Positions 1 through 28,748 of a DNA stretch of 41,120 bases are shown piece after piece (positions within the stretch are counted from its first letter, which is position 1; each line of letters starts with the position of its first letter). The notes below the pieces were generated by a model. It was not told where the DNA came from. It searched no databases and saw only the letters and a list, made by a program, of their open reading frames with translations. Location of the stretch: NCBI GenBank assembly GCA_030754235.1, contig JASMAS010000075.1, positions 1-41,120 on the forward strand, written 5' to 3'. Position numbers and translations under genes: made by a program. Source of the stretch: Litorilituus sp. (GTDB lineage: Bacteria; Pseudomonadota; Gammaproteobacteria; Enterobacterales; Alteromonadaceae).

Positions 1-1751
1 GTTACTTCTTCTAAAATGATACCTCTTTTTGAAATAATGTCATTACTGTAACCGGATACAAAAATAACTTTACTGTTTGGAAAAATACGAGAGAATTTGT
101 CGCTTACCTGTTTGCCATTACTATTTTCAGAGAGAATAATATCAGTGACTAATAAGTGAATTTGAATCTCATTTGGGTTAAGTTCATGAAACATCGTATA
201 ACTGTTCTCATAGCCAAAAACATTATAACCTGCGCTACTTAATACTGAGACTAATAGCTCTCTAACTTGTTTGTCATCTTCAAGGATACATATATTAATT
301 TCATTAGTTTTGCGATGCTCACTTGGCTGAAGTGATTCAATCAATTCGACGGTGTTTTTTTTGCCTGTAACGCGTGCAAGTGGCCATTCAATGATAAATT
401 CTGTTCCTTCTTCATTATCTATATTGACATTAATTGAGCCTTTATTCTTTGTCACTATAGTAAACACCGTCGACAAACCTAACCCTGTGCCAATATCTTT
501 TTTGGTTGTAAAAAAAGGTTCAAATATATATTCCTTAGTTTCCTTGGACATACCACAGCCGTTATCTTTGATAATTAGTGAAACAAAACCCGGTTGTTCA
601 CTATCTTTTAAGAGAATATCTATTCTTTTCTGTTTTGATTTACAACGTTCAAGCATTGCATCTCTAGCATTGACAATCAGGTTTAGGATAACTTGGTCAA
701 TATGGCTTGTATCGGCTTTGATCCAGTATTGATCACAAGCATTAAGTGAAATAAATATATCTTCATCAATAATAGTTGCGTAAGTTGTTAATGCATTTGT
801 GATATGTGTATGTAAGTTAAATGTAGTTGGTTTAACCAACTCTTTACGGCTAAATGTTAGTAACTTTTCTGTCAGTAATTTAGATTTATCAGCAGCAGAT
901 AAAATTCGCTGTAAATAATCGGTATACTTGCCATTATCATAGTGAGTTGATAGCCCTCTTTCTATGAGTTGGGAATAGCCAATGATGACCGCGAGCATGT
1001 TGTTAAAATCATGAGCTATACCACCTGCTAAACGTCCAATTGATTCAACGCGTTGGCTTTGATTTAGGTTATTTGCTAATCGTTGATTTTCTTGTTCTGT
1101 CTTTTTTAAAATAGTGATGTTTTCATAAAAGCATATTATGCCGTATAGTTGCAGCTCTGTGTTTGTCAGTGGCAATATAGTTTCTTTGATACTAATCCTA
1201 TCTCCGCAAGCTATATTCATTTCTCGTTCGCCGCTATATGACAATTTATTTTTTGCGAGAATGTCAGCTTCTGTACTAGAGAGACAGCGGATATATTGAT
1301 AGTCTTTGTTTAATTCCTGCGTATGTTTATTTAAAATTTCATCTTGATCACTCACACCTATGTCGCGTAAGTAGGCATTGTTGCAACCTAAGTATCGTCC
1401 TTTGATATCTTTCCAATATATACTCAGAGGCATTGCTTCTATTACATCGCTTATCATGCGTTGCGCATCAGTTTTTAATGCTGTTTCTCGTTTTAACCAT
1501 AGTGTTTGTTGGACAGTAATTTCGGTTAATAGATCGAATGATTTAATCAGTTGCTTTTGATTTAATGAGTGGCCTAGTGATTCAATACAAAATTGGTGAA
1601 ATGTGACCAAGTCTTCAACGGAACACTTTTTTATAGCGAGCTGTTTTCCCAGTTCAGAGCAATGGTATAATGTATTTTCATCACCTTTTCTGACATATGT
1701 AATTATATAGATACAATACTGGTCAATATATTTCTTAAGAATATTATCCAT
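1..1751 (-). CDS. Hybrid histidine kinase with RsbU-type N-terminal domain, PAS and receiver domain (3' end beyond the window)
   Basis: Reading leftward from an ATG at 1751, the frame stays open for 583 codons to the window edge. Residues about 1-85 resemble the N-terminal domain of Bacillus RsbU, the part that binds RsbT (for example the stretch NTLYHCSELGKQLA followed by SVEDLVTFHQ). A PAS-like region follows (about 100-215), then a HisKA domain with the phospho-acceptor His247 in AHDFNNML. The HATPase has N357, DNGCGM, EPFFTTK and GTGLGLS. A C-terminal receiver domain starts near 485 with EDD and Asp537 and is cut by the edge. The start overlaps the phosphatase stop by 8 bases. Inference: free RsbT docks on the N-terminus and switches kinase activity, so the stressosome output is a phosphorelay instead of a sigma factor. 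There is no transmembrane segment, so it should be cytosolic. Confidence 0.85.
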   Translation of the reverse strand, partial: MDNILKKYIDQYCIYIITYVRKGDENTLYHCSELGKQLAIKKCSVEDLVTFHQFCIESLGHSLNQKQLIKSFDLLTEITVQQTLWLKRETALKTDAQRMISDVIEAMPLSIYWKDIKGRYLGCNNAYLRDIGVSDQDEILNKHTQELNKDYQYIRCLSSTEADILAKNKLSYSGEREMNIACGDRISIKETILPLTNTELQLYGIICFYENITILKKTEQENQRLANNLNQSQRVESIGRLAGGIAHDFNNMLAVIIGYSQLIERGLSTHYDNGKYTDYLQRILSAADKSKLLTEKLLTFSRKELVKPTTFNLHTHITNALTTYATIIDEDIFISLNACDQYWIKADTSHIDQVILNLIVNARDAMLERCKSKQKRIDILLKDSEQPGFVSLIIKDNGCGMSKETKEYIFEPFFTTKKDIGTGLGLSTVFTIVTKNKGSINVNIDNEEGTEFIIEWPLARVTGKKNTVELIESLQPSEHRKTNEINICILEDDKQVRELLVSVLSSAGYNVFGYENSYTMFHELNPNEIQIHLLVTDIILSENSNGKQVSDKFSRIFPNSKVIFVSGYSNDIISKRGIILEEV

Positions 1752-2349
1752 TAAGTGACTCACAAATACAGCATATGTCATCTTTTCCCGACCACTTTTG
1801 AGACAAAAAACTAATAATATGCCGTGAATTCATCAACTGCAGTTGAGGGTGGTTTTGGGTTTTTATCTCCTCAATACCATCTGTAAACATCAACAATTTA
1901 GTTTGTTTAGGCACCTTAATTTGGGTTAAAGATATAGGGAGAGCGTGGTTACCAAAAATCCCCGGAGTGGAACGTAACTTGATTACTTCAGAAGGTGTAA
2001 TAAGTAAGCAATTTATATTACCGACACCAAAGTAATATAGCCTGTTTAGCTTGGGTAAAAATAATACAAAAAAAATAACTACTCCTCGTGTTTTAGCTAA
2101 TTCTGATTGACAAGTTTCAATAATGTCAATCAGTGTTTTATCTCGTGTTTTTTGCACTGTAATCTCAATCAATACTTTATCTAGTGTTTTTTGCACTGAG
2201 GTGTATGCTATATCAGCAATGCAACTGGCTTTTTCTCCATGTCCTATAGCATCAATGACAGCGTAAAAAATACCCTCGTTTCTCTTTTGAACTATATAGC
2301 GATCTCCGCAATATAATTCACCTTTTTTGCTCTCTAAGAAAAAGTGCAT
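1744..2349 (-). CDS. SpoIIE/PP2C-type phosphatase, RsbX-like
   Basis: A small single-domain PP2C-family (SpoIIE fold) phosphatase of 201 aa. In stressosome modules RsbX removes phosphates from RsbR and RsbS to reset the complex. Metal-binding aspartates are visible: Asp16 in CGDRYIV, Asp33 in DAIGHG, the Asp of MFTDGIEE and the C-terminal KDDICC. It should therefore be catalytic. I chose the ATG at 2349, which shares its A with the TGA stop of the upstream ATPase (TGATG), a classic coupling junction. A TTG at 2370 would extend it by 7 residues inside the upstream gene. An in-frame 13-residue tandem duplication sits in the middle. Alternatively it is the phosphatase half of a split ATP-binding SpoIIE protein that acts on a downstream STAS protein. 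Confidence 0.8.
   Translation of the reverse strand: MHFFLESKKGELYCGDRYIVQKRNEGIFYAVIDAIGHGEKASCIADIAYTSVQKTLDKVLIEITVQKTRDKTLIDIIETCQSELAKTRGVVIFFVLFLPKLNRLYYFGVGNINCLLITPSEVIKLRSTPGIFGNHALPISLTQIKVPKQTKLLMFTDGIEEIKTQNHPQLQLMNSRHIISFLSQKWSGKDDICCICESLNG
2127..2204 (-). repeat. Two-copy 39-bp tandem repeat inside the RsbX-like gene
   Basis: Units 2127-2165 and 2166-2204 match at about 31 of 39 positions by eye. They encode VQKTLDKVLIEIT and VQKTRDKTLIDII back to back. The unit is 13 codons, so the frame is kept. It lies in the helical region after the DAIGHG motif. Confidence 0.85.
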
Positions 2350-2786
2350 CAGATAAGCCACTTTAGACAAGTTATTGAAGTACCATGTTGATTTGATGCA
2401 ATCGTGAATTCATCCATTAGCCTTTTTATTCCTGGCAACCCTCCTCCAAGGCCACCATTAGTTGAATAACCATCTTGTAAAGCATCTTCAATTGATATAA
2501 TTCCAGGGCCTGAATCATTGCACGCTAACTTAATGCCTGTACCATTATCGCACTTGATAACTGAAATTTTAATTTCACCGCCATTGTTGGTGTGAAAGAA
2601 AAGATTATAGGCAAGCTCTGACATAGAAGTTACTAATTCAACTATACTGGTACTATTGTAGCCTTGAGACAGCGCTATTTTTTTTAATTCTTGCCGTGCT
2701 TTTGATATTTGCCATTCTTTTTTAATGACTAATTCACAGAGGATGCTTTCTGCATACTTTAGAGCACTCGTTTTATTTGAGGTCAT
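2349..2786 (-). CDS. Second RsbT-like GHKL serine kinase/ATPase
   Basis: A 145-aa HATPase_c protein of the RsbT/RsbW class. It shows the N-box SELAYNLFFH, the G1 box NDSGPGI, and a glycine-rich lid with DGYSTNGGLGGGLPGIKRL. The C-terminus LKWLI resembles RsbT, which ends in IKWLR in Bacillus. It starts 3 bases after the stop of the first RsbT-like gene and its TGA overlaps the phosphatase ATG. In many bacteria an RsbT-like ATPase and a SpoIIE domain form one polypeptide; here they are two coupled genes. Substrate is not visible from sequence. It could phosphorylate RsbS or RsbR, or assist the phosphatase. Confidence 0.82.
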   Translation of the reverse strand: MTSNKTSALKYAESILCELVIKKEWQISKARQELKKIALSQGYNSTSIVELVTSMSELAYNLFFHTNNGGEIKISVIKCDNGTGIKLACNDSGPGIISIEDALQDGYSTNGGLGGGLPGIKRLMDEFTIASNQHGTSITCLKWLI

Positions 2787-2789
2787 TTA

Positions 2790-3212
2790 TCAATACTTTT
2801 TTTGTCTAATTGTTATCTCAATTTGGGTTAGGCCTGGTTCGGATTTTATTGAGAGTTCATGTACTAATCTTTTTGCTCCAGGCAAGCCTAAACCTAGTCC
2901 GTTACCACTAGAATAACCATCGGTCATTGCGAGTTTAGGGTTTTCTATACCGGGACCATGATCAATAATTTTTGCCATTATTGTGTGGTAATTTTTATCG
3001 GTGTAAACATAAAATTGACAGCTACCAGTATCTGCATAGGTTAGAATATTTCTTGTTAATTCTGAAATTGCAGTGGCAAAGCGAGTTTGCTCGCCTTTTG
3101 AAAATTTAAAACAGTGAGCGAGCTCGCGTCCTTTTTGCCGAGCCGTCACTATATCTTTGGTGGAGCATATTGGCACGTGCTCAGAAACTTCTGGTGACAT
3201 TCCATTCATCAT
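2790..3212 (-). CDS. rsbT: RsbT-like stressosome switch kinase
   Basis: A 140-aa GHKL kinase. In the family, RsbT is held by the stressosome, phosphorylates RsbS and RsbR under stress, and then leaves to activate a partner. Visible motifs are AISELTRNILTYA (N-box with the E..RN pattern typical of RsbT), DHGPGI (G1), and DGYSSGNGLGLGLPGAKRL (lid). The region TARQKGRELA matches the VAARQLGRN segment of Bacillus RsbT. It lies 26 bases after rsbS, in the canonical R-S-T order. Tandem ATG codons occur at the start; the upstream GGGGATAGG gives a plausible ribosome binding site. Of the two RsbT-like genes this is the likelier true RsbT by position and motif. Confidence 0.87.
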   Translation of the reverse strand: MMNGMSPEVSEHVPICSTKDIVTARQKGRELAHCFKFSKGEQTRFATAISELTRNILTYADTGSCQFYVYTDKNYHTIMAKIIDHGPGIENPKLAMTDGYSSGNGLGLGLPGAKRLVHELSIKSEPGLTQIEITIRQKKY

Positions 3213-3238
3213 ACAAACCTATCCCCTGATTCATAAAA

Positions 3239-3604
3239 CTATTTTTTTGCTTGAACTTTGGTTGATAAATAGTCAAACGCTTGATCTAATGATAAAAAAG
3301 TTTCTACATTGTTAAGCATCATTCCCATATCAACCAATGTCGATGAAACAGCAGGTTTAACCCCACTGAGCAAAAACACGCTACCTTGCAGTTTTACCAT
3401 GCTGGTTAAATCTTTTAGCACTTTGGCCATGTAAGAGTCAATAACATCGAGAGTTGACACATCAATAATAACCCCTTTCGTGTTAAGTTTGTGATTTTTT
3501 TTCAATAAGTTAGATTGAAATAACAACACTTCTTCATCTGTTAACTCAGTTTGTATTGATGCTATTAGTGTCGACTTTAGGTATAAAATTGGAATTATAG
3601 TCAT
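3239..3604 (-). CDS. rsbS: RsbS, single-domain STAS stressosome scaffold
   Basis: A 121-aa STAS protein closely resembling Bacillus RsbS over its whole length (start IIPILYLKSTLIASIQ, then GVIIDVSTLDVIDSYMAKVL, SGVKPAVSSTLVDMG). Ser57, in the IDSYMAK motif, corresponds to the RsbT phosphorylation site Ser59 of Bacillus RsbS. RsbS and RsbR co-assemble into the stressosome core, which sequesters RsbT. The ATG follows the rsbR stop directly with no spacer (TAAATG), which suggests coupled translation and matched stoichiometry. Confidence 0.9.
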   Translation of the reverse strand: MTIIPILYLKSTLIASIQTELTDEEVLLFQSNLLKKNHKLNTKGVIIDVSTLDVIDSYMAKVLKDLTSMVKLQGSVFLLSGVKPAVSSTLVDMGMMLNNVETFLSLDQAFDYLSTKVQAKK

Positions 3605-4432
3605 TTATGCCTCTTTACTAAGAATAGTATGAGTTTTACTGTAGCCATATGCGATGGCATTCTCTAAAGTATTGAAGGTTTCAACGTGACTCAAGTCTAC
3701 GCCAAGTTTAACTATAGTTACTGCGGCATTAGGGCTAATGCCTGACAAAATCACTTGCGTACCAACCATTTTCGCAGCAATAATTGTTTTAAGAATATTA
3801 TTTGCTACATGCGTATCAAATGTTGGCACTGCCGTCATGTCAATTATTGCCATTTCCGCTTGGTTTTCTACTACTGACTCTAATAGCGACTCTATTATTT
3901 TTTGTGCTTTCATCGTATCAATAATCCCCATTAACGGCATGAGTAAAATACTCGATGAAATTTTTACTATGGGGGTATCATGCTCTAATGCATATGCTTG
4001 AGATTTAATCACTTCTTCACGAGTATCTGTGTATATTCTAAAGGTCAACACCGCAAGATCATCAACAAAGTCATTAAAAGTTATATATTCCGTTGATGCA
4101 GAGTCAGGATATTCACTCGATACAAGTTGATATATGATTCTTTTCAACACAAGTAAATAATTTGCTGTTTGTGTTGGGGTAAAATGATTGAGTGCTCGAT
4201 ATGTCGCGAATGAGCTCAGTTCTTGCTCAAGTAGTTGGTAGGCTTTAGTGCTTTGTATCTTCTCAGATTGAACTAAAGTGCATTGGTGTATGAGGGTTAA
4301 GATTGCGGAGCAATCTGTTTTTTCGCGTTCTTTATTCTCTTCACCGGTAAAGGTGACCGCATCTACCCAGTTATCAATTATTTTTGCCTTATGAGCTTCA
4401 ATTAACGAATTAATCTTTCTATAATCTTTCAC
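3605..4432 (-). CDS. rsbR: RsbR-like stressosome sensor (N-terminal sensor plus STAS)
   Basis: A 275-aa protein with an all-helical N-terminal sensor (about 1-145), a linker helix and a C-terminal STAS domain (about 155-270). The motif PLMGIIDTMKA places Thr173 at the position of Thr171 of Bacillus RsbR, and DMTAVPTFDTHVANNIL places Thr207 at that of Thr205; both are RsbT targets. The start is a GTG at 4432 preceded by AAGGTG, a good ribosome binding site. The N-terminus sets the signal. In vibrios the RsbR N-terminus is a globin-like heme domain; whether this one binds heme cannot be read from sequence alone. It is the first gene of the R-S-T-T-X-kinase series. Confidence 0.88.
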   Translation of the reverse strand: MKDYRKINSLIEAHKAKIIDNWVDAVTFTGEENKEREKTDCSAILTLIHQCTLVQSEKIQSTKAYQLLEQELSSFATYRALNHFTPTQTANYLLVLKRIIYQLVSSEYPDSASTEYITFNDFVDDLAVLTFRIYTDTREEVIKSQAYALEHDTPIVKISSSILLMPLMGIIDTMKAQKIIESLLESVVENQAEMAIIDMTAVPTFDTHVANNILKTIIAAKMVGTQVILSGISPNAAVTIVKLGVDLSHVETFNTLENAIAYGYSKTHTILSKEA

Positions 4433-4483: not shown

Positions 4484-5650
4484 TTACTTCCAACTTCTAA
4501 GCCATTCATTAACAGCATTGGCAGGCATAGGCTTACTATAAAAGAAGCCTTGACCATAACTGTACTGCATTTGTATTAACGCCTCTGCTTCATCTATGGT
4601 TTCTATCCCTTCAGCTATTACGTTTAAGCCGAGTTGAGTCGCCATGTCAAAAATAGCTTTAACGATTATTTTAGATTGAGGTTTGTTTTGTATTGAATCG
4701 ATGAACATTCTGTCAACTTTTAACTCTGTAAACGGACCATTTTGCAGCATGTTTACTGATGAATAGCCAGAGCCAAAGTCATCTATCGACAATTTAAACC
4801 CCATTAATCGCAGTCGAGTTAGTACTTCTAATGACATTGTGTTTTTTTCTAATAAGACTGTTTCGGTAATTTCTAGTGTAATCATGTTAGTTGAAATGCG
4901 GTATTGTTGTGCTTTTTTCAATAACAGATCAGGTAAGCCGTTTTGTCTAAGTTCTGTGCTAGAAAAGTTAATCGCCAACCCAAGGCCGTTTTTTTTCTCA
5001 TCGATCAGCGAGAAATACTTTAGAGATTGGTCAATAATCAGCGCCGTAAGATCTGACATAAGATGGTTGTTTTCAGCGAGCATAATAAATTTTTCTGGCG
5101 ATACAAAAGTATTGTCTAAAGACCACCTTGCAAGTGCTTCAAACCCTACTGGTTGACGAGTTTTTAAGTTGAATTTGGGTTGGAAATAGACATCTATTTT
5201 GTGTTGCTTAATCGCTTTTTTTAGCTGTATGATTAACGTGGCATCACTCCGTAATTCTTCAGGAGGATAGGGAGAAGATAGCGTTTCTTTTGCTTTAAAT
5301 GGAATAAATTTTTCGAGAAAATCTATGTCAAACGGTTTGCGTAAAAGTGTGTGGAAGTTTAGCTTATGTAGTTTGCAAATTTCTTTTGCTGACTCCAATA
5401 ATGTTCCCGCTTGTCCAGACGTTACCGAAATATAACCTTTATAATTGATTTCTTTAAGAAACCTTAAAATCTGCAAACCATCAAAATCCGGCATCGATAA
5501 ATCAATAATAATATGTTCTATGTCGGCTAAGTCGTATTGTAAAATAGCGATAGGTTGCGTCAACACTTGACATTTTATCCCTGTTTCTTCTATGGCTACT
5601 GAGAAAAATTGGGTGAAATCTTTATCGTCATCTATAAGTAGTAATGCCAA
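4484..5650 (-). CDS. Response regulator with EAL c-di-GMP phosphodiesterase domain
   Basis: A 388-aa REC-EAL protein. REC (about 1-120) has IDDDKDF and phospho-acceptor Asp in HIIIDLSMPDFDG. The EAL domain (about 135-385) keeps the catalytic residues: GFEALARW, AINFSS, LEITET, IDDFGSG, ELKVDRMFI, AEGIET and GQGFFYSKPM. It should hydrolyse c-di-GMP to pGpG when activated. The start is a TTG at 5650 with AAGGA eight bases upstream; no better start precedes the REC domain. It lies 51 bases upstream of rsbR in the same direction, and is a likely phosphorelay target of the hybrid kinase. That pairing is inferred from position only. Confidence 0.9.
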   Translation of the reverse strand: MALLLIDDDKDFTQFFSVAIEETGIKCQVLTQPIAILQYDLADIEHIIIDLSMPDFDGLQILRFLKEINYKGYISVTSGQAGTLLESAKEICKLHKLNFHTLLRKPFDIDFLEKFIPFKAKETLSSPYPPEELRSDATLIIQLKKAIKQHKIDVYFQPKFNLKTRQPVGFEALARWSLDNTFVSPEKFIMLAENNHLMSDLTALIIDQSLKYFSLIDEKKNGLGLAINFSSTELRQNGLPDLLLKKAQQYRISTNMITLEITETVLLEKNTMSLEVLTRLRLMGFKLSIDDFGSGYSSVNMLQNGPFTELKVDRMFIDSIQNKPQSKIIVKAIFDMATQLGLNVIAEGIETIDEAEALIQMQYSYGQGFFYSKPMPANAVNEWLRSWK

Positions 5651-5696: not shown

Positions 5697-6098
5697 TTAA
5701 TCTAGCGGGTAATTTACATTCCATTTGTTCAAAAGCTCTCTGACATTTTTATCAAACTCTAATTTTGATAAAAAACTAGTCGCCCCTAACATTTTTGCTT
5801 CACTAACATGTTCTTTTCGTGTATCGCCAGAAAACATAACAACAGTGGTAGAAGGTCGTTTAACTTTGATCCATGTTAATAAGGTTAACCCATTAGTCCC
5901 TTGTAAATTTATATCGATAAAAATTAGATCGGCACTAAAAACGAGATTACTCTCCATAAACTCTTTTATCGAAGTAAATGCACTCACTTTGATAAAGCCC
6001 AGTTCTTGCAGAATTAGTGCTGCAAAATCGACAATCGACTTTTCATCATCAATAACAATAATATTAGAATTCTTTTTTAATTGCGGTTCGAAGCTCAT
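5697..6098 (-). CDS. Stand-alone receiver-domain protein (CheY-like)
   Basis: A 133-aa single REC domain. It has the acidic pair in IIVIDDEKS, the phospho-acceptor Asp in LIFIDINLQG, the Thr/Ser switch in VVMFSGDTRK and the Lys in FLSKLEF. No output domain is present, so it may shuttle phosphate or act by protein contact. It is 46 bases upstream of the REC-EAL gene, and probably co-transcribed with it. With the receiver fused to the hybrid kinase, this makes a four-receiver cluster with one kinase. Confidence 0.85.
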   Translation of the reverse strand: MSFEPQLKKNSNIIVIDDEKSIVDFAALILQELGFIKVSAFTSIKEFMESNLVFSADLIFIDINLQGTNGLTLLTWIKVKRPSTTVVMFSGDTRKEHVSEAKMLGATSFLSKLEFDKNVRELLNKWNVNYPLD

Positions 6099-6325: not shown

Positions 6326-7156
6326 TTAAAAAAGAGCTCTAGCGTGGACATTCTTTTCTTCGGTATTTATATGCGCTTGAGCGAATTTTTTGGGCGATAT
6401 AACAAAAGCCTTTTTAAAACAGCGTGAGAAATAACTTTGTGAGTCAAACCCTGTTAGCTCTGCGGTTTTTGTTACTGAAATACCTTTAAGTAACAATGTT
6501 TTCGCTTTTCTTAACCGAAAAATTTGAAGACAAAAAGAAGGCCCATACCCATAAACTTTGTTGCATTTGCGCTGCAATTGTCGTTCACTCATAGCCATTG
6601 ATTTAGCGAGTTCAATCACAGTAAATGAATTATCTGGAAAATTTTTTTCAAGCGAAATACTTAATTTATCATCAAAAATGAGATCAGGCGTCAACATCAC
6701 GCTGATGGTTTCTTCGGGGGTTAAATGGTTAAGTTGTGTTTTTGCTTGTAGGGTTAAAATATTGAGAACATTGTTTACTTTTTGACTCAGTGTATTGATA
6801 TCAAAGGGTTTGGTGACGTAATCTATAGCGCCTAACTTTAAACCTTTCTGTGTTTTCTTTTTTTCGGTGGATGAAGAAATTAGAATCAGGGGGATGTGTT
6901 TAGTGGTATTATTCTCAGTGAGTTTTTTTAGCAGTTCTAAACCGCCCATGATAGGCATATTGATATCAGTAATAATCAAACAAGGAGGGCTATTCATTGC
7001 TATTTTTATGGCTTCTTCGCCATTGCTTGCTTCTATAATGATGTGCTCGACCGATAACACCTCTTTCATGAGGTTCCTTAATAGCTTGTTATCTTCGACT
7101 ATGAGGATAGTATTCTGTTCGTTGACATTGCTAGTCGTTGAGCTTTGAACGTCCAT
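6326..7156 (-). CDS. Response regulator with AraC-type DNA-binding domain
   Basis: REC domain (about 15-125; IVEDNKLL, Asp in LIITDINMPIMGG, Lys in DYVTKPF) followed by a linker and an AraC-family double helix-turn-helix at the C-terminus (SMAMSERQLQRKC; ELTGFDSQSYFSRCFKKAF; SPKKFAQ). I prefer the ATG at 7156 (276 aa), which has AAGGAAA seven bases upstream; an in-frame ATG at 7180 adds 8 residues but lacks such a site. It is separated from the next REC gene by 227 bases with no ORF, so it may be its own transcript. It is the only DNA-binding output in the cluster and could carry the transcriptional response of the stressosome relay (inference). Confidence 0.88.
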   Translation of the reverse strand: MDVQSSTTSNVNEQNTILIVEDNKLLRNLMKEVLSVEHIIIEASNGEEAIKIAMNSPPCLIITDINMPIMGGLELLKKLTENNTTKHIPLILISSSTEKKKTQKGLKLGAIDYVTKPFDINTLSQKVNNVLNILTLQAKTQLNHLTPEETISVMLTPDLIFDDKLSISLEKNFPDNSFTVIELAKSMAMSERQLQRKCNKVYGYGPSFCLQIFRLRKAKTLLLKGISVTKTAELTGFDSQSYFSRCFKKAFVISPKKFAQAHINTEEKNVHARALF

Positions 7157-7668
7157 ACCGATTTCCTTATCAATGTTCATATTTAATTAAATTTTCATCG
7201 ATGATTTATGTTGTAACTGAAGTTATTTATGGCATTTAGGTTGTAGGTTTAAAATGTATACGTTCTTGGTGGTATAAAAAGTTCAACAATTAGGACGCTT
7301 ATAACCGCTTCGCCAAAAAATAACGTAACTTCTTCAAATATGCAGATTGATACTAACAGATGATAGCTCAATATTGCTAGCGAGAATTAAGTTTTTTATC
7401 TGGGCTTGTTTATAATGAACTCGACAATAACATCATACTTAACAGTCTGTTTTTAATATGTGTTTTTTAGATTGATGTTAAAAAGTATATCTGTTTTCAA
7501 TACTTGTCAGCGAACTGATAACAATTCAAACTAACTTAAATATAGAACTACTTGATGTTTAAGTTAGTTTGTATGTTCTGAGCTCGCTAATGTAACAGCT
7601 AAGCTGACTCATTTACTTTATTAATATGGTATAAGCGCTTGATAGTTAAATCGCTTAATGATGCAAAC
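7157..7668. other. Non-coding gap between the regulator gene and the lpdA terminator
   Basis: An AT-rich region of about 510 bases with no credible ORF. It must contain the promoter of the REC-AraC gene near its left end. The only clear structure is the perfect inverted repeat listed separately at 7527-7571. Confidence 0.6.
7527..7571. repeat. Perfect 14-bp inverted repeat with 17-base loop
   Basis: Left arm CAAACTAACTTAAA (7527-7540) is the exact reverse complement of right arm TTTAAGTTAGTTTG (7558-7571). There is no T-run on either side, so it does not look like a standard intrinsic terminator. Function unknown. Confidence 0.85.
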
Positions 7669-7743: not shown

Positions 7744-9174
7744 TTACTTCTTTTTCTTTACTGCTTTGGCGTTGGGTAAATCAGTAATTGAACCTTCGAA
7801 TATTTCAGCGGCTAAACCAATTGATTCATTCAAAGTAGGGTGAGCGTGAATAGTTAAACCAACATCTTCGGCATCAGCCCCCATTTCAACCGCCAAACAG
7901 ATTTCTCCAAGCATTTCGCCAGCATTAATACCCACAATAGCACCACCAAGAACACGACCTGTTTCTTTTTCAAAGATCATCTTAGTTTTTCCTTCAGTAC
8001 GTGCAGAAGCAATAGCACGACCAGAAGCCGCCCAAGGGAAGTTAGCCACTTCAATATTTAAACCTTGCTCTTTTGCTTCACGCTCAGTAACGCCAACCCA
8101 GGCCATTTCCGGATCAGTATAAGCAATTGAAGGGATACAACGGGGATCAAATTCATGTTTCTTGCCAGAGATAACTTCAGCAGCGCAATGAGCTTCATGT
8201 ACCGCTTTATGTGCAAGCATAGGTTGGCCAACAACATCTCCAATCGCAAAGATGTGAGGTACATTTGTACGCATTTCTTTAGAAACGTTAATGAAACCAC
8301 GTTCGTCAACATTGACGCCAGCTTTGTCAGCCGCAACTAAGTGACCGTTTGGTTTGCGGCCAACAGCGACTAAAATTTTGTCGTAACGTACTTGCTCTGC
8401 AGGTGCTTTTTTACCTTCAAAAGTAACGTATAAACCGTCATCTTTTGCTTCAACAGCAACCACTTTAGTAGACAACATAATGTTGAACTTCTTCTTGTTG
8501 TAGTTGTTGTAAATTTTAACGATATCTTTATCAGCAGCTGGTACTAATTGGTCAGCAAATTCAACAACAGATACATTTGAACCTAGCGCAGAGTAAACAG
8601 TGCCCATTTCTAAACCAATGATACCGCCACCTAGTACTAGCATCTCTTCTGGAACATCTTTAAGTTCTAAAGCACCCGTTGAGTCGATAACACGTGGGTC
8701 ATCATTTGGAATAAAGGGTAAATCAATTACCGAAGAGCCACAGGCGATAATGGCATTATCAAATGTGATGGTAGTTTTGCCGTCGCTGCCTTCAACGTCA
8801 ATAGTTTTGTCAGAAGTGAATGAACCAACACCGGTAACAGTTTTAACTTTACGTGCTTTTGACATGCCGCCTAAGCCACCAGTTAATTGACCAATGACCT
8901 CTTCTTTCCAGCCACGAATTTTATCTAAATCAATTTCAGGCTTACCAAAAGTAACACCGTGAGATGCCATTGCTGCTGCATCATCAATAACTTTAGCTAC
9001 GTGGAGTAATGCTTTAGAAGGGATGCAACCAACGTTTAAACAAACGCCACCTAAAGTTGCACGGCTCTCTACTAATACTACCTCTAAGCCTAAATCAGCT
9101 GCGCGAAATGCTGCAGAATAGCCACCAGGGCCTGCACCTAATACTACTACTTGAGTTTTGATATTGTTACTCAT
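7744..9174 (-). CDS. lpdA: Dihydrolipoyl dehydrogenase (E3)
   Basis: FAD flavoprotein that reoxidises dihydrolipoyl groups with NAD+ for the pyruvate and 2-oxoglutarate dehydrogenase complexes. It is 476 aa from the ATG at 9174. Visible are the FAD-binding VVVLGAGPGGYSAA, the redox-active disulfide in GGVCLNVGCIPSK, the NAD-binding LGGGIIGLEMG, the second FAD motif IFAIGDVVGQPML, and the catalytic HAHPTLNESIG near the C-terminus. I reject an upstream TTG at 9186, because GAGG lies eight bases before the ATG. It ends the pdhR-aceE-aceF operon, but a 171-base gap with a strong hairpin separates it from aceF, so it may also have its own expression level. Confidence 0.97.
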   Translation of the reverse strand: MSNNIKTQVVVLGAGPGGYSAAFRAADLGLEVVLVESRATLGGVCLNVGCIPSKALLHVAKVIDDAAAMASHGVTFGKPEIDLDKIRGWKEEVIGQLTGGLGGMSKARKVKTVTGVGSFTSDKTIDVEGSDGKTTITFDNAIIACGSSVIDLPFIPNDDPRVIDSTGALELKDVPEEMLVLGGGIIGLEMGTVYSALGSNVSVVEFADQLVPAADKDIVKIYNNYNKKKFNIMLSTKVVAVEAKDDGLYVTFEGKKAPAEQVRYDKILVAVGRKPNGHLVAADKAGVNVDERGFINVSKEMRTNVPHIFAIGDVVGQPMLAHKAVHEAHCAAEVISGKKHEFDPRCIPSIAYTDPEMAWVGVTEREAKEQGLNIEVANFPWAASGRAIASARTEGKTKMIFEKETGRVLGGAIVGINAGEMLGEICLAVEMGADAEDVGLTIHAHPTLNESIGLAAEIFEGSITDLPNAKAVKKKK

Positions 9175-9258
9175 GCTTATCCTCAAATTATAATTTGTAT
9201 GATGATAAGCAATGTTTCACTATCATCATTTGCTTGTTGTTTATAACGAAATATATAT

Positions 9259-9298
9259 TGTTGGCGATTTTACTCTTTGCTAAGTAAAATCGCCAATA
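9259..9298 (-). repeat. Strong hairpin between aceF and lpdA
   Basis: TTGGCGATTTTAC (9261-9273) and GTAAAATCGCCAA (9284-9296) pair perfectly with a 10-base loop. On the transcribed minus strand no T-run follows, so full termination is unlikely. It could stabilise the aceEF message, cause partial read-through, or be a protein site. Confidence 0.8.
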
Positions 9299-9345
9299 CT
9301 AATTAACAAGAGACGACAAAATTGCACTCTTATTGATTTAGCTTA

Positions 9346-10998
9346 CTACAGAACTAACTTACGAATGTCAGACATTACCCCAGCTAAATGTACAGTAAAG
9401 CGTGCGGCAAGTGCGCCATCAATAACACGGTGATCGTAAGACATTGATAACGGAAGCATAAGTTTAGGTTCAAACTCTTTACCATTCCACTTAGGTTTCA
9501 TTTCAGATTTAGATACACCTAAAATTGCCACTTCTGGTGCATTAACGATTGGCGTAAACGCCGTACCGCCAATGCCGCCTAGGCTAGAAATTGTAAAGCA
9601 GCCACCCTGCATGTCAGCAGCTTTTAACTTGCCATCACGTGCTTTCATGCTAATTTCAAGTAATTCACGTGATAACTGGTGAATACCTTTTTTATCTACG
9701 TCACGTACTACTGGTACGACTAATCCGTTTGGTGTATCAACCGCAACACCAATGTGGATGTATTTTTTCAAAATTAAGCTTTCGCCATCTTCACTTAAGC
9801 TTGAGTTAAACGTTGGGAAGGCACGTAATGCATCAGCAGCAGCTTTTAAAATAAATACTAATGGCGTAATTTTAAAACCGAGTTTTTGCTTTTCACAAAC
9901 AACATTTTGTTCTTTGCGGAATGCTTCAACATTGGTGATATCAGCTTCATCAAATTGGGTAACATGAGGAATAGTTACCCAGTTACGGTGTAAGAATGGG
10001 CCAGATATTTTTTGAATACGCGATAGTGACTTGGTTTCAATTTCGCCGAATTTTGAAAAATCGATTTGTTTGGCACTAATAACTTGTAAACCACCTTCAC
10101 CTGCGGCAACTGAGCTACCAGCATTGGCTTTTGGACGAGAAAGTTCATATTTAACATAAGATTGAACATCTTCTTTTAAAATACGATCCTTGTTACCCGT
10201 GCCCTTGACCAAGGTTAAATCGACACCGAACTCACGGGCTATGCGACGAATTGAAGGTGAGCTATAGATTGCGCCTTTACTGCTTGTACCTGATTGTGGG
10301 TGATGAGGTACAGGAGAGCTGACCGGTGCTGTGGTTGGTGCAACTTTGGCTGGTGCTGCAACTGGAGCTGGCTTAGATGCAGCTTTGGTTACCGGCATAT
10401 CCACTGGGGCGCCGTTTGATGTTTCAAGTGTAATAACAAGGCTACCTTGTTTGACTTTGTCACCGACATTGATGAAAACTTCTTTAACAGTACCGGTATG
10501 CGTTGAAGGTACATCCATAGTCGCTTTGTCAGTTTCAAGTGTGATTAAACCATCTTCTTCTTCGATTGCATCACCAGCACTGATCAGGACGTCAATCACG
10601 TCAACTTCACCCTCTTCACCAATATCAGGTACTGCGACTTCAATCACTGCGGATGCAACAGCTACCGGAGCAGGTGCTATAACTTCAGCAACAGGAGCTT
10701 CAATAGCGGTTTGAACTACAGGTGCTGCTTCGGCTACTGGTGCTTTCTCAGCCACGGCTTCGCCAGTAGCACAGATTTCTCCGATAACATCACCTTCTTT
10801 GATTTTATCGCCAACGGATACACTAAGGCTCGTTAAAGTACCTGCAAATGGGGCAGGAATATCCATTGACGCTTTATCGGTTTCAACGCTAACAATACCT
10901 TCATCAGCTTCGAGAGCGTCGCCTACGGCAGCACATATTTCGATGATTTCTACTTCTTCGCCGCCCACGTCGGGGACTAGAATTTTTTCATTAGACAT
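9346..10998 (-). CDS. aceF: Pyruvate dehydrogenase E2, dihydrolipoyl acetyltransferase
   Basis: Core of the pyruvate dehydrogenase complex; transfers acetyl from lipoyl to CoA. The 550-aa protein has two lipoyl domains with the modified lysines Lys42 (ETDKASM) and Lys158 (ETDKATM), Ala/Pro-rich linkers, an E1/E3-binding domain near 245-285 (SPSIRRIAREFGVDL), and the catalytic domain with the C-terminal SYDHRVIDGA. E. coli AceF has three lipoyl domains and 630 aa, so this is a two-lipoyl version. It starts 26 bases after aceE. Confidence 0.97.
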   Translation of the reverse strand: MSNEKILVPDVGGEEVEIIEICAAVGDALEADEGIVSVETDKASMDIPAPFAGTLTSLSVSVGDKIKEGDVIGEICATGEAVAEKAPVAEAAPVVQTAIEAPVAEVIAPAPVAVASAVIEVAVPDIGEEGEVDVIDVLISAGDAIEEEDGLITLETDKATMDVPSTHTGTVKEVFINVGDKVKQGSLVITLETSNGAPVDMPVTKAASKPAPVAAPAKVAPTTAPVSSPVPHHPQSGTSSKGAIYSSPSIRRIAREFGVDLTLVKGTGNKDRILKEDVQSYVKYELSRPKANAGSSVAAGEGGLQVISAKQIDFSKFGEIETKSLSRIQKISGPFLHRNWVTIPHVTQFDEADITNVEAFRKEQNVVCEKQKLGFKITPLVFILKAAADALRAFPTFNSSLSEDGESLILKKYIHIGVAVDTPNGLVVPVVRDVDKKGIHQLSRELLEISMKARDGKLKAADMQGGCFTISSLGGIGGTAFTPIVNAPEVAILGVSKSEMKPKWNGKEFEPKLMLPLSMSYDHRVIDGALAARFTVHLAGVMSDIRKLVL

Positions 10999-11024
10999 GT
11001 TCTTTTCCTTATTCTAGTCGTGGC

Positions 11025-13703
11025 TTAAGCGTAAAGTGGATTAAGTTTATCACTGTCGATGTTAAAGCGTTTAATCGCTTCACTCACAACACTGCGCTTA
11101 ACCTCACCACGATTTGACAGTTCAAATAACGCGGCAACAACAATGTAGTTTTGATCTACTTCGAAATGTTGACGTAAATTATCACGGCTATCACTACGAC
11201 CAAAACCATCAGTACCCAAACAACGATACTCTGTATCTAGGTAGGCACGCACCTGGTCTGAATAGTTTTTAATGTAATCAGTGGCGGCAATGGCAGGACC
11301 GGCATCTTTAGAGATAACGCTAGAAATATAAGGAACTCGCTGCTTACTTTCTGGATGAAGCATGTTCCAACGCGTAACATCTTGACCATCACGAGCTAAT
11401 TCATTAAATGAAGTTACTGAGTAAACATCACTTGAGATATTATAGTCATTAGCTAAAATCTGTGCGGCTTGACGAACTTTCTGCAATATTGTCCCTGAGC
11501 CCATTAACTGAACATTAGCAATGGCTTTCTTCTTCGTCGCGACTTGCTCTAATTGGTAAATACCTTTGATAATTTGATCGCTAATATCTTTTGTCTCAGG
11601 AATTGCAGGATGCTGATAGTTTTCATTCATTAAAGTCAGGTAGTAGAATACATTCTCGTTTTCTTCATACATACGGCGTAAACCATCTCGCACGATAACA
11701 GCAATCTCATAACCGTAAGTTGGATCATAAGTAACACAGTTAGGAATTAATCCCGCTTGCACATGAGAATGACCGTCTTGGTGTTGTAAACCTTCACCGT
11801 TTAGCGTTGTTCTACCCGCTGTTGCACCTAATAAGAAACCACGTGCTTGGCTATCGCCAGCCGCCCATGCCAAATCACCCACACGTTGGAAACCAAACAT
11901 TGAGTAGTACACATAGAAAGGAATAGTCGTAGCGTTACAGGTTGAGTATGAAGTACCAGAAGCAACCCATGATGCCATTGCCCCGAGCTCATTAATACCT
12001 TCTTGTAATACTTGACCTTTTTTGTCTTCACGGTAGTAAGCAACTTGGTCAGCATCTTGTGGAACGTATTTTTGCCCTTCATTAGCATAAATACCTACTT
12101 GGCGGAATAAACCTTCCATACCAAATGTACGTGCTTCATCAGGAATGATAGGCACAATACGTTTACCTATTTTTTTATCTTTTAACAAGCTGTTGAGCAC
12201 TCTTACAAAAGTCATTGTTGATGATACTTCACGGTCACCAGAGCCTTTTGTGATAGCATCAAAAGATTTTAATGGTGGTATCTCCATTGATTCTTCTGGT
12301 TGCTGACGACGTGCTGGTAATGAACCACCAAGTGCTTCACGGCGAGCTTTCATGTACTTATATTCTTCGCTGTCTTCTGGGAATTGGAAGAATGGTAAAT
12401 CTTCAATGTCATCATCGCTAATTGGCATATTGAAACGATCACGGTAATGCTTGATTGACTCAACATCCATTTTCTTAACGTTATGAGCAATATTTAATGC
12501 TTCACCTGAAGCTCCTAAACCGAAACCTTTTACGGTTTTAGCTAGAATAACTGTTGGGCGACCTTTAGTGTTCATGGCTTTTTCATAAGCAGCATAAACT
12601 TTAACAGGATCATGACCACCACGGTTTAAGCGCCAAATATCCTTATCAGACATATTAGCAACCATGGCTTCAGTTTCAGGGTATTTGTTAAAGAAATGCT
12701 CACGGGTGTATTTCCCGCCTTTGGCTTTACAATTTTGGTACTCACCATCAACCGTTTCGTTCATTAACTGTAATAATTTACCTGAGGTATCACGAGCTAA
12801 TAGTTGATCCCAGTAGCTACCCCAAATAACTTTTACAACTTCCCAGCCAGCGCCACGAAATGTACCTTCAAGTTCTTGAATGATTTTACCATTACCGCGC
12901 ACAGGGCCATCTAAACGCTGTAAGTTACAGTTAATGATAAAAGTTAAATTATCCAGTCCTTCACGAGATGCTAAGCCGATAGCACCTAATGACTCTGGCT
13001 CATCAGTTTCACCATCACCTAAGAAACAGTATACACGTTGACCAGAACAATCTTTAATACCACGGTTTGTTAAGTATTTTAAGAAACGGGCTGTGTAAAT
13101 AGCTTGTAGTGGACCTAAGCCCATAGAAACGGTTGGGAACTGCCAGAAATCATCCATCAAATGCGGGTGAGGGTAAGAGGATAAACCTTTACCATCACAC
13201 TCTTGACGGAAGTTTGCCATTTGTTCTTCAGTTAAACGGCCTTCTAAAAAAGCACGAGCATAAATACCTGGAGATATATGGCCTTGAGCAAAAATAAAAT
13301 CGCCACCATCTTTTTCTGTAGCCGCTTTAAAGAAGTGGTTAAAACCCACATCATATAATGTTGAACTTGAGGCAAAACTACCAATATGACCACCGAGCTC
13401 TAAATTTTTCTTAGACGCACGAAGTACTAAGGCTAGTGCATTCCAGCGAATAGCAGCACGAATACGTGATTCTATCGTTTGATCCGCAGGCATATGAGGC
13501 TCTTGGCCAGGGGAAATAGTATTCACATAAGCCGTTGTCGCATCAAATGGTAAATGAGTACCACCACGACGAGCACGGTCAATCAATGTTTCTAACAGAT
13601 AATGGGCTCGTTCTGGGCCTTCATTTTCTAATACCGCTTCCATTGACTCTAACCACTCCTGGGTTTCTAGTGAATCAATATCGATGTTTGGTAGATCTGA
13701 CAT
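11025..13703 (-). CDS. aceE: Pyruvate dehydrogenase E1, homodimeric type
   Basis: Thiamin diphosphate enzyme that decarboxylates pyruvate and acetylates the E2 lipoyl group. At 892 aa it matches the single-chain E1 of gammaproteobacteria (887 aa in E. coli). The ThDP-binding stretch is visible as GDGETDEPES followed by NLTFIINCNLQRLDGPVRGN. Other typical segments are FAQGHISPGIYARAFLEGR and GEGLQHQDGHSH. It lies 64 bases after pdhR and 26 bases before aceF, in one operon. Confidence 0.97.
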   Translation of the reverse strand: MSDLPNIDIDSLETQEWLESMEAVLENEGPERAHYLLETLIDRARRGGTHLPFDATTAYVNTISPGQEPHMPADQTIESRIRAAIRWNALALVLRASKKNLELGGHIGSFASSSTLYDVGFNHFFKAATEKDGGDFIFAQGHISPGIYARAFLEGRLTEEQMANFRQECDGKGLSSYPHPHLMDDFWQFPTVSMGLGPLQAIYTARFLKYLTNRGIKDCSGQRVYCFLGDGETDEPESLGAIGLASREGLDNLTFIINCNLQRLDGPVRGNGKIIQELEGTFRGAGWEVVKVIWGSYWDQLLARDTSGKLLQLMNETVDGEYQNCKAKGGKYTREHFFNKYPETEAMVANMSDKDIWRLNRGGHDPVKVYAAYEKAMNTKGRPTVILAKTVKGFGLGASGEALNIAHNVKKMDVESIKHYRDRFNMPISDDDIEDLPFFQFPEDSEEYKYMKARREALGGSLPARRQQPEESMEIPPLKSFDAITKGSGDREVSSTMTFVRVLNSLLKDKKIGKRIVPIIPDEARTFGMEGLFRQVGIYANEGQKYVPQDADQVAYYREDKKGQVLQEGINELGAMASWVASGTSYSTCNATTIPFYVYYSMFGFQRVGDLAWAAGDSQARGFLLGATAGRTTLNGEGLQHQDGHSHVQAGLIPNCVTYDPTYGYEIAVIVRDGLRRMYEENENVFYYLTLMNENYQHPAIPETKDISDQIIKGIYQLEQVATKKKAIANVQLMGSGTILQKVRQAAQILANDYNISSDVYSVTSFNELARDGQDVTRWNMLHPESKQRVPYISSVISKDAGPAIAATDYIKNYSDQVRAYLDTEYRCLGTDGFGRSDSRDNLRQHFEVDQNYIVVAALFELSNRGEVKRSVVSEAIKRFNIDSDKLNPLYA

Positions 13704-26995: not shown

Positions 26996-27610
26996 TTAAA
27001 AATTAAATTGTTTTCTTGCTTGTTGCCACTCTTCGGGCGTATTGGTATTAAATAACATATTGCTATCATTGCAGTGAATAGCTTGATGCGGAATTTGATT
27101 TAATAAGGCTTTAATTGATGGCCCTTTATTTTTAAATCGGCTACCTTCTTGTGTTTCTGCTGTGCACGATGATGGTGTAAATGCTTGTGCTAAAAAAAGT
27201 TCGACATAGCTATTGTTGGGTAAAAATAGTGGGATGTTATGGCCTTTAAAGTAAGTTGCTTTGTGACTCAATTCACCTTTTACACGCAATTCGGTAAGCG
27301 CAGATGCTTTCATTAGCGGTAGATCAACGGGTAAGATCAATAAAGATTTTATATGAGGGAAGCGAGATAATACGCTTAAAATACCACCAACAGGGCCGCT
27401 TTCTTTCACGTTGTCAGGGATTTGATAATTATCGCCACTGATCACAACATTGCTAATACCCGATTCAAGGAGTATTTGCTTGGAAAACGCTAACATAGAG
27501 TGCTTATCTCGAAGTAGCTTAGCTTTATCTTGCCCCATGCGAGAAGATAAGCCTCCAGCAAGTACAACCCCTAAGCAGTCATTATTGGCAGTGCGAGTCA
27601 TATCAACCAC
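26996..27610 (-). CDS. mobA: Molybdenum cofactor guanylyltransferase
   Basis: 204-aa nucleotidyltransferase that attaches GMP to Moco, making the bis-MGD cofactor of DMSO-reductase-family enzymes. The GTP-binding LAGGLSSRMGQDKAKL, SGPVGGILSVL and LPVDLPLM motifs are present. It overlaps moaA by 8 bases. Its presence implies that the organism uses enzymes such as Nap nitrate, DMSO/TMAO reductases or formate dehydrogenase. Confidence 0.95.
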   Translation of the reverse strand: MVDMTRTANNDCLGVVLAGGLSSRMGQDKAKLLRDKHSMLAFSKQILLESGISNVVISGDNYQIPDNVKESGPVGGILSVLSRFPHIKSLLILPVDLPLMKASALTELRVKGELSHKATYFKGHNIPLFLPNNSYVELFLAQAFTPSSCTAETQEGSRFKNKGPSIKALLNQIPHQAIHCNDSNMLFNTNTPEEWQQARKQFNF

Positions 27611-28574
27611 CTAGCATGGCTAAATGCTTAGTACCGCCAGTAAGTTTGTCATGTAAGAAGTGCGCCGCTTTTTTATCACCTAACAAGGATAAAATTTGTG
27701 CCTGTAATGGTTCAATATCATCACATTGCAGTTGTTCACGTAAAGACAGGCCGTTCTCACCAAACAAACATAGGTGTAATTTACCTGATGAGCTTACACG
27801 AAGGCGGTTACAACTATCACAAAAGTCTTTGGAATAGGGCATGATCAGACCAATACGACCTTGATAATCAGGGTGGTAAAATTCTTGTGCGGGGCCCGCT
27901 GCCTTATCTTGAATTACGGGCAACCAACCATCCAAAATGAGGTTTTGTTTGATGCGTGAACCTTGTACGTGCTGGGCATCGAAAAATGCTTGGTTGTCAC
28001 CTGTTTGCATTAATTCAATAAAACGTAGCGTAACAGGAGTGTCTTTTAACCAGTCTAAATAGCTTTTAATATCTCGGCCGCTATATTCACGCATTAATAC
28101 CGTATTGACTTTAATGGTTGGACGACCATCAGCCAAGGCCATATCAATTCCCTTTAAAACAGTCTCTAACTTATCGTGGCCAGTAATGGCAAAAAACTGC
28201 CGAGGATCTAAACTGTCTGCACTAATATTAATAGCATCAATACCTGCGTCTAACCATTGGGGTAAATGTTCAGGTAACTTGAAACCATTACTGGTAATGG
28301 CGACTTTTTTTATGCCAGGAGTTTGTTTACAGGTTGAAATAACCTCAGGAAGATCTTTTCTTAACGCAGGCTCGCCACCTGTGATGCGAATTTTTTCAGT
28401 ACCTAAACTGGCAAAAGCAAACGTGAGGCGTTTGATTTCAGCAAGTGACATAAAATCACGTGGTTGATCACATTGATAGCCATCAGGCAGGCAGTAATTG
28501 CACTTAAAATTGCATACGTCGGTAATTGATAGGCGCAAATAATAAAATCTGCGTCCGAAGTTGTCTGTTAACAT
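27603..28574 (-). CDS. moaA: GTP 3',8-cyclase (radical SAM)
   Basis: 323-aa first enzyme of Moco synthesis, carrying out radical rearrangement of GTP. The radical SAM cluster motif is CNFKCNYC (near 21-28), and the C-terminal cluster cysteines appear in FCDSCNRLRVSSSGKLHLCLFG. The protein ends in GG, required for activity in the family. It is the first gene of a ten-gene operon. The ATG is preceded by AAGGTGAG, which lies inside the probable Moco riboswitch. Confidence 0.97.
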   Translation of the reverse strand: MLTDNFGRRFYYLRLSITDVCNFKCNYCLPDGYQCDQPRDFMSLAEIKRLTFAFASLGTEKIRITGGEPALRKDLPEVISTCKQTPGIKKVAITSNGFKLPEHLPQWLDAGIDAINISADSLDPRQFFAITGHDKLETVLKGIDMALADGRPTIKVNTVLMREYSGRDIKSYLDWLKDTPVTLRFIELMQTGDNQAFFDAQHVQGSRIKQNLILDGWLPVIQDKAAGPAQEFYHPDYQGRIGLIMPYSKDFCDSCNRLRVSSSGKLHLCLFGENGLSLREQLQCDDIEPLQAQILSLLGDKKAAHFLHDKLTGGTKHLAMLGG

Positions 28575-28700: not shown

Positions 28701-28748
28701 CTCGGTGTAAATACTCGCTTAAGTATATATCATTTATTGGCACTTATG

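Follow-up and report, generated by a model that had tools for sequence, protein, structure and literature searches.

A stressosome gene cluster of Litorilituus sp. whose predicted output is an RsbU_N-bearing hybrid histidine kinase, with a second RsbT-like ATPase directly before rsbX

RsbU_N domains have been reported on proteins encoded downstream of rsbR-rsbS-rsbT-rsbX (RSTX) in alpha-, beta- and gammaproteobacteria, with phosphorelays among the outputs listed and docking of RsbT proposed (Heinz et al., 2022, PMC9237108). An RsbU_N-histidine kinase of a gammaproteobacterium has since been modeled, with RsbT proposed to order its helix (eLife 2025, PMC12143880), and a putative RsbU has been noted in Vibrio brasiliensis (PMC4976288). 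How stressosomes pass on their signal without sigma-B is an open question; the 2022 study reports that no RsbU_N was found in Vibrio vulnificus and that contact between RsbT and the kinase, tested there as binding of VvRsbT to VvD1, was not detected (PMC9237108). Here we describe a stressosome cluster at the start of a 41,120-nucleotide stretch of Litorilituus sp. DNA (contig JASMAS010000075.1, assembly GCA_030754235.1), the whole of which we call the window. An initial annotation, made from its letters, proposed that stress frees RsbT, which docks on a hybrid kinase and so changes a phosphorelay. The sequence partly supports this interpretation; as an idea the wiring is not new, because both studies of RsbU_N proteins cited above propose it (PMC9237108, PMC12143880).

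The window's genome is a 3.33 Mb draft of 112 contigs; one of these, C75, has its end where the window begins (G000:C75:1; G, L and C numbers denote genomes, loci and contigs, G000 being the window's genome). The open reading frames of the window define a stressosome cluster of nine genes, all on the minus strand, in which T2 is a label given by gene position:

6326 to 7180, minus strand: REC-AraC response regulator, the probable transcriptional output, Asp72 (Pfam REC 91.9 bits, HTH_18 71 bits; synteny)
5697 to 6098, minus strand: single-domain receiver, Asp62 (Pfam REC 71.5 bits; synteny)
4484 to 5650, minus strand: REC-EAL protein, a predicted cyclic di-GMP (c-di-GMP) phosphodiesterase, Asp50, with motifs EAL, DDFG, KVDR and EGIE (Pfam EAL 208.9 bits, REC 38 bits; synteny)
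3605 to 4432, minus strand: RsbR, RsbRD_N plus STAS (Pfam RsbRD_N 44.4 bits, STAS 46.8 bits; PDB 7b0u, E 7.3e-27)
3239 to 3604, minus strand: RsbS, STAS (Pfam STAS 40.8 bits; PDB 6jhk, E 1.8e-26)
2790 to 3212, minus strand: RsbT, a GHKL ATPase (Pfam HATPase_c 38.7 bits, HATPase_c_2 over cut-off; residues; tree)
2349 to 2786, minus strand: T2, a second RsbT-like ATPase (Pfam HATPase_c_2 39.4 bits; clade with five other T2; residues)
1744 to 2370, minus strand: RsbX-like SpoIIE/PP2C phosphatase (Pfam SpoIIE 40.6 bits; PDB 3zt9 and 3w40; motifs)
3 to 1781, minus strand: hybrid histidine kinase, RsbU_N (21-89), helix, PAS-like (120-221), HisKA (His257), HATPase, REC (Asp547) (Pfam; AlphaFold2; Foldseek; length of relatives)

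We propose, with a probability of about 0.62, that the output of this stressosome is the two-component kinase: freed RsbT would dock on the RsbU_N domain and alter the kinase, and T2 would work with RsbX in the reset. We regard docking of RsbT on the kinase as the best reading because the kinase carries RsbU_N, no RsbV/RsbW-like pair was found, the phosphosites of the core are present and contact residues are kept on both sides of the putative interface. The gene content, domains, synteny, residue conservation and genome-level co-occurrence on which this rests are described below as observed.

The kinase N-terminus, likened in the initial annotation to the RsbT-binding domain of RsbU, matches Pfam RsbU_N at 39.8 bits over residues 21-89 (cut-off 25.5) and is the only RsbU_N match in the genome; the corresponding kinase of L003, the locus of Thalassotalea sp. 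isolate ALOHA_ZT_66, scores 34.6 bits. HATPase_c is also over its cut-off and REC is truncated. Of the other Pfam models that the annotation had suggested for the kinase, HisKA is over its cut-off and PAS gives only a weak match (PAS_4, E 0.24). The PAS assignment is taken from an AlphaFold2 model, in which a PAS-like stretch at 120-221 is followed by dimerization and histidine phosphotransfer (DHp), catalytic (CA) and REC parts (mean predicted local distance difference test, pLDDT, 75.5; predicted template modeling score, pTM, 0.37), and from its best PDB matches in Foldseek, which are LOV-histidine kinase chimeras (E 7.4e-25). The phospho-acceptor had been numbered His247, which is right from the second ATG and becomes His257 from the first. 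Counted from matching ATGs, the kinase has 593 residues in the window, 622 in L003 and 621 in L104; the window edge is the contig end, and the kinase therefore lacks the last part of its receiver. The full-length L003 kinase has one receiver and no Hpt match. Modeled with AlphaFold2, the N-domain (pLDDT 86.6) consists of helices ending in one long helix, 75-116, which enters the linker and would be what the published RsbT mechanism needs. Among the best 80 of at least 587 relatives returned by a broad kinase search, only L003 aligned from residue 1; L004 and L005, from the same search, are rows of alignment A2.

On the side of the core, E45, N49 and D78 of RsbT (Bacillus subtilis numbering), which we take to be catalytic, are kept in the window and conserved in 49 of 49 RsbT-like rows compared, a set that leaves aside three long-branched rows. 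RsbT itself gave no solved-structure match at E 0.01. RsbX matches the structures 3zt9 (E 9.2e-14), presumably Moorella RsbX, and RsbX 3w40 (E 1.4e-4), and contains the motifs CGD, VIDAIGHG, TDG and DD; with its SpoIIE match, this predicts a feedback-type phosphatase. S57 of RsbS aligns with the Listeria RsbS phosphosite S56, and T173 and T207 of RsbR with the Listeria RsbR phosphosites T175 and T209 (PMC12154155). With phosphosites, RsbX motifs and ATPase residues kept, the core looks competent. RsbRD_N is over its cut-off in the RsbR of the five T2 loci tested, out of eight in total (window, L105, L106, L109 and L139); in L138, a one-ATPase locus, RsbR carries a protoglobin domain, and in L107 RsbRD_N falls below threshold.

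The contact residues listed for the RsbU-RsbT pair are E24, Y28, I74 and I78 of RsbU and R19, R23 and N24 of RsbT (PMC12143880). Of the 24 RsbU_N places compared, 22 have Glu in the E24 column, and these are all 22 that are over the Pfam cut-off; the two others, both below it, are the first domain of G968 (Asn) and G1096, where the match stops short of the place. In the window's kinase this place is E35, which is invariant, together with Y22 and L38, in a 17-row alignment; Y28 is also kept and I78 is replaced by Val. The RsbT of the window keeps R19 and R23, and both are Arg in the RsbT of 12/12 RsbU_N loci that have an R-S-T or T gene. The same holds for the second RsbT-like gene that G765 carries and for three of three orphan RsbT-like genes adjoining RsbU_N proteins. 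The pair occurs in none of four single-ATPase loci without RsbU_N (G027, G567, G692 and Vibrio sp. THAF191d), which form one clade.

No RsbV/RsbW-like pair was found by a genome-wide search with the HATPase_c_2 and STAS profiles, in which sigma factor models were not included. HATPase_c_2 has 13 matches in the genome, the only short open reading frames being RsbT and T2 and the others having 353-629 amino acids; STAS has four, namely RsbR, RsbS, a 98-residue frame on contig C99 between what, named from gene order, look like mla and murA genes, and a 528-residue frame. Besides RsbX, SpoIIE matches lie in frames of 611, 579 and 957 residues, the first just over the cut-off. The searches thus gave no set of RsbU phosphatase, RsbV and RsbW, the sole RsbU_N match being on the kinase and no short RsbW-like frame being seen besides RsbT and T2. 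An RsbVW set directly beyond the left edge, which is the contig end, would have spoken against the annotation; the genome-wide search gave no such pair. A candidate partner gene beyond the edge was also rejected: searching the genome with the gene that comes next in L003 yielded nothing but general kinase matches, of which the best one lying outside the window, on C59, has 28% identity and a strand that does not fit.

The six genes originally named (RsbR, RsbS, RsbT, second ATPase, RsbX and hybrid kinase) are all present on the minus strand with Pfam backing. The cluster does not end at 4432 as first drawn, since the REC-EAL, REC and REC-AraC genes further upstream belong to a stretch that is syntenic in two relatives: all nine genes recur in conserved order, at 44-80% identity, in L003 and L104 (G071, of the window's family). 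The intergenic gaps from REC-AraC to the kinase are 227, 46, 51, 0, 26, 3, -22 and -38 nucleotides, and because they are small or negative from REC to the kinase, that stretch reads like an operon. T2 and rsbX overlap by 22 nucleotides, and rsbX and the kinase gene by 38, or fewer if the kinase starts at 1751; the 38-nucleotide overlap is identical in the window, L003 and L104 when the matching ATG is used. A promoter and terminator scan gave counts no higher than in shuffled sequence.

In the window's class, RsbU_N is found in 8 of 369 genomes and an RsbS match in 11 of 369, its own included in each (G567 enters through the STAS domain of RsbR, with an RsbS-like gene following). Seven genomes have both, giving a hypergeometric P of 1.5e-11 that ignores kinship and takes the samples as the same set. 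An RsbU_N kinase accompanies the RsbS match in the window's genome, G533, G678, G755, G589, G745 and G765, in the last on a different contig from R-S-T-X; none was seen in the neighborhoods of G816, G692 and G567, and the G623 locus ends after rsbX, with no rsbR beside its rsbS. A free T2 is present in five of the 11 (the window's genome, G533, G678, G755 and G623), an ATPase-RsbX fusion in one (G816) and a single ATPase between rsbS and rsbX in five. These 11 neighborhoods show that both the RsbU_N kinase and the extra ATPase recur. At family level, two of the 147 genomes sampled have RsbU_N and three of the 147 an RsbS match (G027 through the STAS domain of RsbR, an RsbS-like gene adjoining), and the four other genomes of the genus listed have neither match; apart from synteny of the L003/L104 type, the cluster is patchy within the family. 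The order-level RsbU_N search yielded 1 of 394 genomes, the window's own, and the phylum-level search 10 of 349, its own included.

Several further loci show these components in other arrangements. In L139 (7216-9893), a T2-bearing stressosome locus, an RsbU_N-GGDEF cyclase directly precedes an RsbU_N-PAS-kinase-REC protein, so that one RsbT could serve both outputs. In L134, L135 and L136, RsbT-like genes of one clade (100/99) adjoin RsbU_N proteins, and no RsbR, RsbS or RsbX was seen nearby with our own profiles. G765 (L108/L175) has a further RsbT-like gene after its kinase and a NarL-type regulator; it is closely related to the RsbT that lies on the other contig (100/99). An RsbX-like SpoIIE domain and a histidine kinase share one 604-residue protein in L174 (1304-3118, G567), after RsbR-, RsbS- and RsbT-like genes. 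The Vibrio-type kinase of L173 (1581-4286) lacks RsbU_N, and its first 60 residues, which weakly match our RsbT profile (20 bits), could be what is left of an RsbT-like segment.

The extra ATPase, which the initial annotation listed as a trait of this version, is not peculiar to it: several lineages have it too, and there is a counterpart in fused form. The HATPase_c match of the window's T2 is below the Pfam cut-off (24.6 bits); the protein keeps E45, N49, D78 and R19 and has Lys at R23. E45, N49 and D78 are kept in all eight T2, and a free T2 stands directly before rsbX in 8/8 T2 loci. In eight other loci an RsbT-like domain is fused to an RsbX-like phosphatase. One is in G816 (L172); the other seven, chosen among hits to T2 or RsbS and hence not a fair sample, are plasmid loci, two of Paraburkholderia and one each of Deinococcus radiodurans, Sphingomonas, Phaeobacter, Variovorax and Caballeronia. 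By Pfam, an RsbT-like domain also heads a histidine kinase in six of the eight (L147, L148, L151, L153, L155 and L172); Variovorax has no such head, and that of Caballeronia scores 44 bits in our own profile with no Pfam match. RsbU_N was found in none of the eight fused-type loci. R19 and R23 are both Arg in one of eight T2 and one of eight RsbX-fused domains. 

A tree of 49 RsbT-like rows, from which Lysinibacillus RsbW and the Phaeobacter T and T-kinase domains were omitted for their long branches, groups the RsbX-fused domains (99/97) and the kinase-fused domains (100/100); the RsbT of L148 (ParaA) and the Variovorax and Caballeronia kinase N-parts are not in any tree. A separate clade (98/95) holds the T2 of the window, G071, Thalassotalea, G989, G755 and G623; those of G678 and G533 join the RsbX-fused group (96/86), which that pair did not do in an earlier tree including the long-branched rows. 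The T2 of G755 scores higher on our RsbT profile than on our T2 profile. Descent of T2 from, or into, an RsbX-fused ATPase, which we first thought likely, is unsupported for the window, where the tree separates the two; the approximately unbiased (AU) test rejects neither a clade joining T2 with the fused domains (p 0.41) nor one that unites the eight T2 (p 0.34). This makes T2 look like an old lineage standing directly before rsbX, and its tie to RsbX is drawn from gene position and the analogy of the fusions, not from descent. In the window T2 and RsbX are separate overlapping genes, unlike the HATPase_c_2-SpoIIE fusion in one polypeptide.

Together these data suggest a model in which RsbR, of RsbRD_N type, and RsbS form a STAS core holding RsbT. 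On stress, RsbT would phosphorylate RsbS (S57) and RsbR (T173, T207), leave the core and dock on the kinase dimer, at its RsbU_N domain and the long helix next to it; this would fix the helix and so move the kinase between its autophosphorylating and its phosphatase state. By way of the kinase receiver, and of a phosphotransfer step with no counterpart seen in the cluster, phosphate would then reach the cluster's receivers, the REC-AraC protein acting on transcription and the REC-EAL protein on c-di-GMP breakdown. RsbX would reset the core, and T2 would most likely be its partner ATPase, either keeping the phosphatase at phosphorylated STAS domains or, as a kinase, working against it. Binding, phosphorylation, output and the sign of regulation are what we infer here. 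More tentatively, and with greater doubt than confidence, RsbT-like ATPases may be exchangeable docking heads, RsbT serving the kinase (through RsbU_N or by fusion) and the old T2 lineage serving RsbX (or fused to it); the window would then be the fully split form, in which kinase and phosphatase compete for the core via two paralogous heads.

A number of observations weigh against docking of RsbT on this kinase and against the part given to T2. No Hpt domain was seen within the cluster. Foldseek found no match for the kinase N-domain at E 0.001; RsbU N-domains came near the top (two best: probability 0.82 and 0.80, template modeling score by target 0.63 and 0.65), but at E of about 1 and level with KaiA C-terminal domains, and phmmer against RsbU gave E 0.56. 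At the contact places, I74 is Thr in the window, Y28 is Tyr in the window and its two syntenic relatives only, and N24 and D92 of RsbT vary across RsbU_N loci. Both arginines are also present in five of six RsbT rows of the fused-type loci, which have no RsbU_N (the Phaeobacter RsbT, outside the tree, appears to lack R23), and in 5/5 kinase-fused RsbT-like domains; we therefore dropped the notion that R19 and R23 are kept only where an RsbU_N kinase exists and do not treat them as a specific mark of RsbU_N docking. Finally, the window's T2 falls outside the RsbX-fused clade, although the joint clade is not rejected.

Four other explanations share some of this evidence. A reversed, inhibitory link, in which core-bound RsbT holds the kinase through RsbU_N and its release frees the kinase without switching it on, would fit the fused-type kinases, whose own RsbT-like domain would tie them to the STAS core, and the RsbT-dependent phosphorylation suggested for kinases without RsbU_N (PMC9237108); as RsbT of B. 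subtilis leaves the stressosome to bind RsbU (PMC12143880), we consider it rather improbable. It is unlikely that T2 docks on the kinase while RsbT phosphorylates the core only: the T2 gene is nearer the kinase gene, its ATP site is intact, the window's T2 keeps R19 and D92, and a free T2 is present in seven loci with an RsbU_N kinase, but G589, G745 and G1155 have such a kinase with a single ATPase directly after rsbS, and the arginine pair is found in 12/12 RsbT of RsbU_N loci against 1/8 T2.

That RsbU_N is a dimerization domain only, the kinase answering to PAS alone, seems very unlikely to us. The conserved Glu at E24 (22/22 over cut-off), the co-occurrence with RsbS and the conserved gene order all speak for more than this, even though N-domains other than those of the two syntenic relatives share 13-22% identity with the window's, the RsbU_N kinase of G705 has nothing but an RsbX fragment beside it, and L140, L141 and L142 have no RsbT nearby (the RsbU_N match of L142 being below cut-off). 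We give hardly any credence to T2 being an RsbW-like anti-sigma factor in a pathway that ends in a sigma factor elsewhere. T2 does weakly match SpoIIAB (E 0.001; NCBIfam spIIAB 35 bits, cut-off 135), and sigma factors were outside the scope of the genome searches; against this, the branch of Lysinibacillus RsbW is very long and lies apart from T2, the GLGxGLPG stretch of RsbT rows is present in T2 as well, and the only RsbV-like STAS protein is the one among mla-like genes. Docking of freed RsbT on the RsbU_N domain of the kinase, with T2 assisting RsbX, remains the reading we prefer.

Elsewhere in the window, lpd-like and pyruvate dehydrogenase E2 and E1 genes (7744-13703, minus strand) stand directly upstream of the cluster; neither L003 nor L104 showed an lpd match. 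An ordinary molybdenum cofactor (Moco) riboswitch (RF01055, 73.6 bits, 28561-28719, minus strand) stands just before a moaA-like gene (27603-28574). Among the records compared, L154 (CP031730.1, a Stenotrophomonas plasmid) shares an acpS-alr-MazF-rsbT-phosphatase-rsbW-sigB stretch with the Lysinibacillus record L150 (NZ_CP130332.1); CP031730.1 may be a mislabeled or mixed assembly.

Compared with described systems, the window resembles those of PMC9237108 in that RSTX is followed at once by an RsbU_N signaling protein, with phosphorelay outputs and, in theirs, no sigma-B cascade. That survey took globin-type RsbR and the window has the RsbRD_N type; the window also has REC-EAL and REC-AraC genes upstream of rsbR, and between rsbT and rsbX a free second ATPase that the available text of the survey does not mention. 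The kinase modeled in PMC12143880 likewise has RsbU_N joined to a histidine kinase by a helix; it is called NreB, with no receiver mentioned in the available text, whereas the window's has a PAS-like part, HisKA and a receiver. This NreB-type kinase may resemble those of L107 and L111 (HisKA_3 kinase plus regulator). MtG of Moorella thermoacetica also bears RsbU_N on an output protein, but is a GGDEF cyclase where the window has a kinase (PMC12143880).

The six fused-type loci with a kinase-heading domain (Paraburkholderia, Deinococcus radiodurans MP1, Sphingomonas, Phaeobacter and G816) share with the window RsbS, RsbT, RsbX, a histidine kinase and an extra RsbT-like domain with RsbX; they differ in that this domain is fused to RsbX, another heads the kinase, and the kinase lacks RsbU_N. 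We recognized no description of a second ATPase beside RsbX in the literature searched by listings and abstract openings, which did not extend to subscription reviews (such as Pane-Farre 2005 and 2017). As far as that search shows, the T2 lineage, its fused counterparts and the nine-gene arrangement are new, and the second ATPase beside RsbX suggests, in a form open to test, how the reset might be directed to the core.

Vibrio loci, cited in the initial annotation as related, are not near relatives, given the missing RsbU_N and undetected VvRsbT-VvD1 binding in V. vulnificus. Its VvRsbRSTX-VvD1-VvD2 system is like the window in having RSTX followed by a kinase, a c-di-GMP output, as is thought, and no sigma-B (PMC9237108, PMC10014275), and differs in lacking the RsbU_N that the window's kinase has. 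In Vibrio sp. THAF191d (L149) the kinase is PAS-HisKA-HATPase-REC-REC-Hpt, accompanied by a REC-HD protein and one RsbT, with no T2; the window type, as seen in the full-length L003 kinase, has RsbU_N, one receiver and no Hpt match. Because they keep a recognizable docking domain on the kinase, loci of the window type are a better place to measure signaling from RsbT to a kinase.

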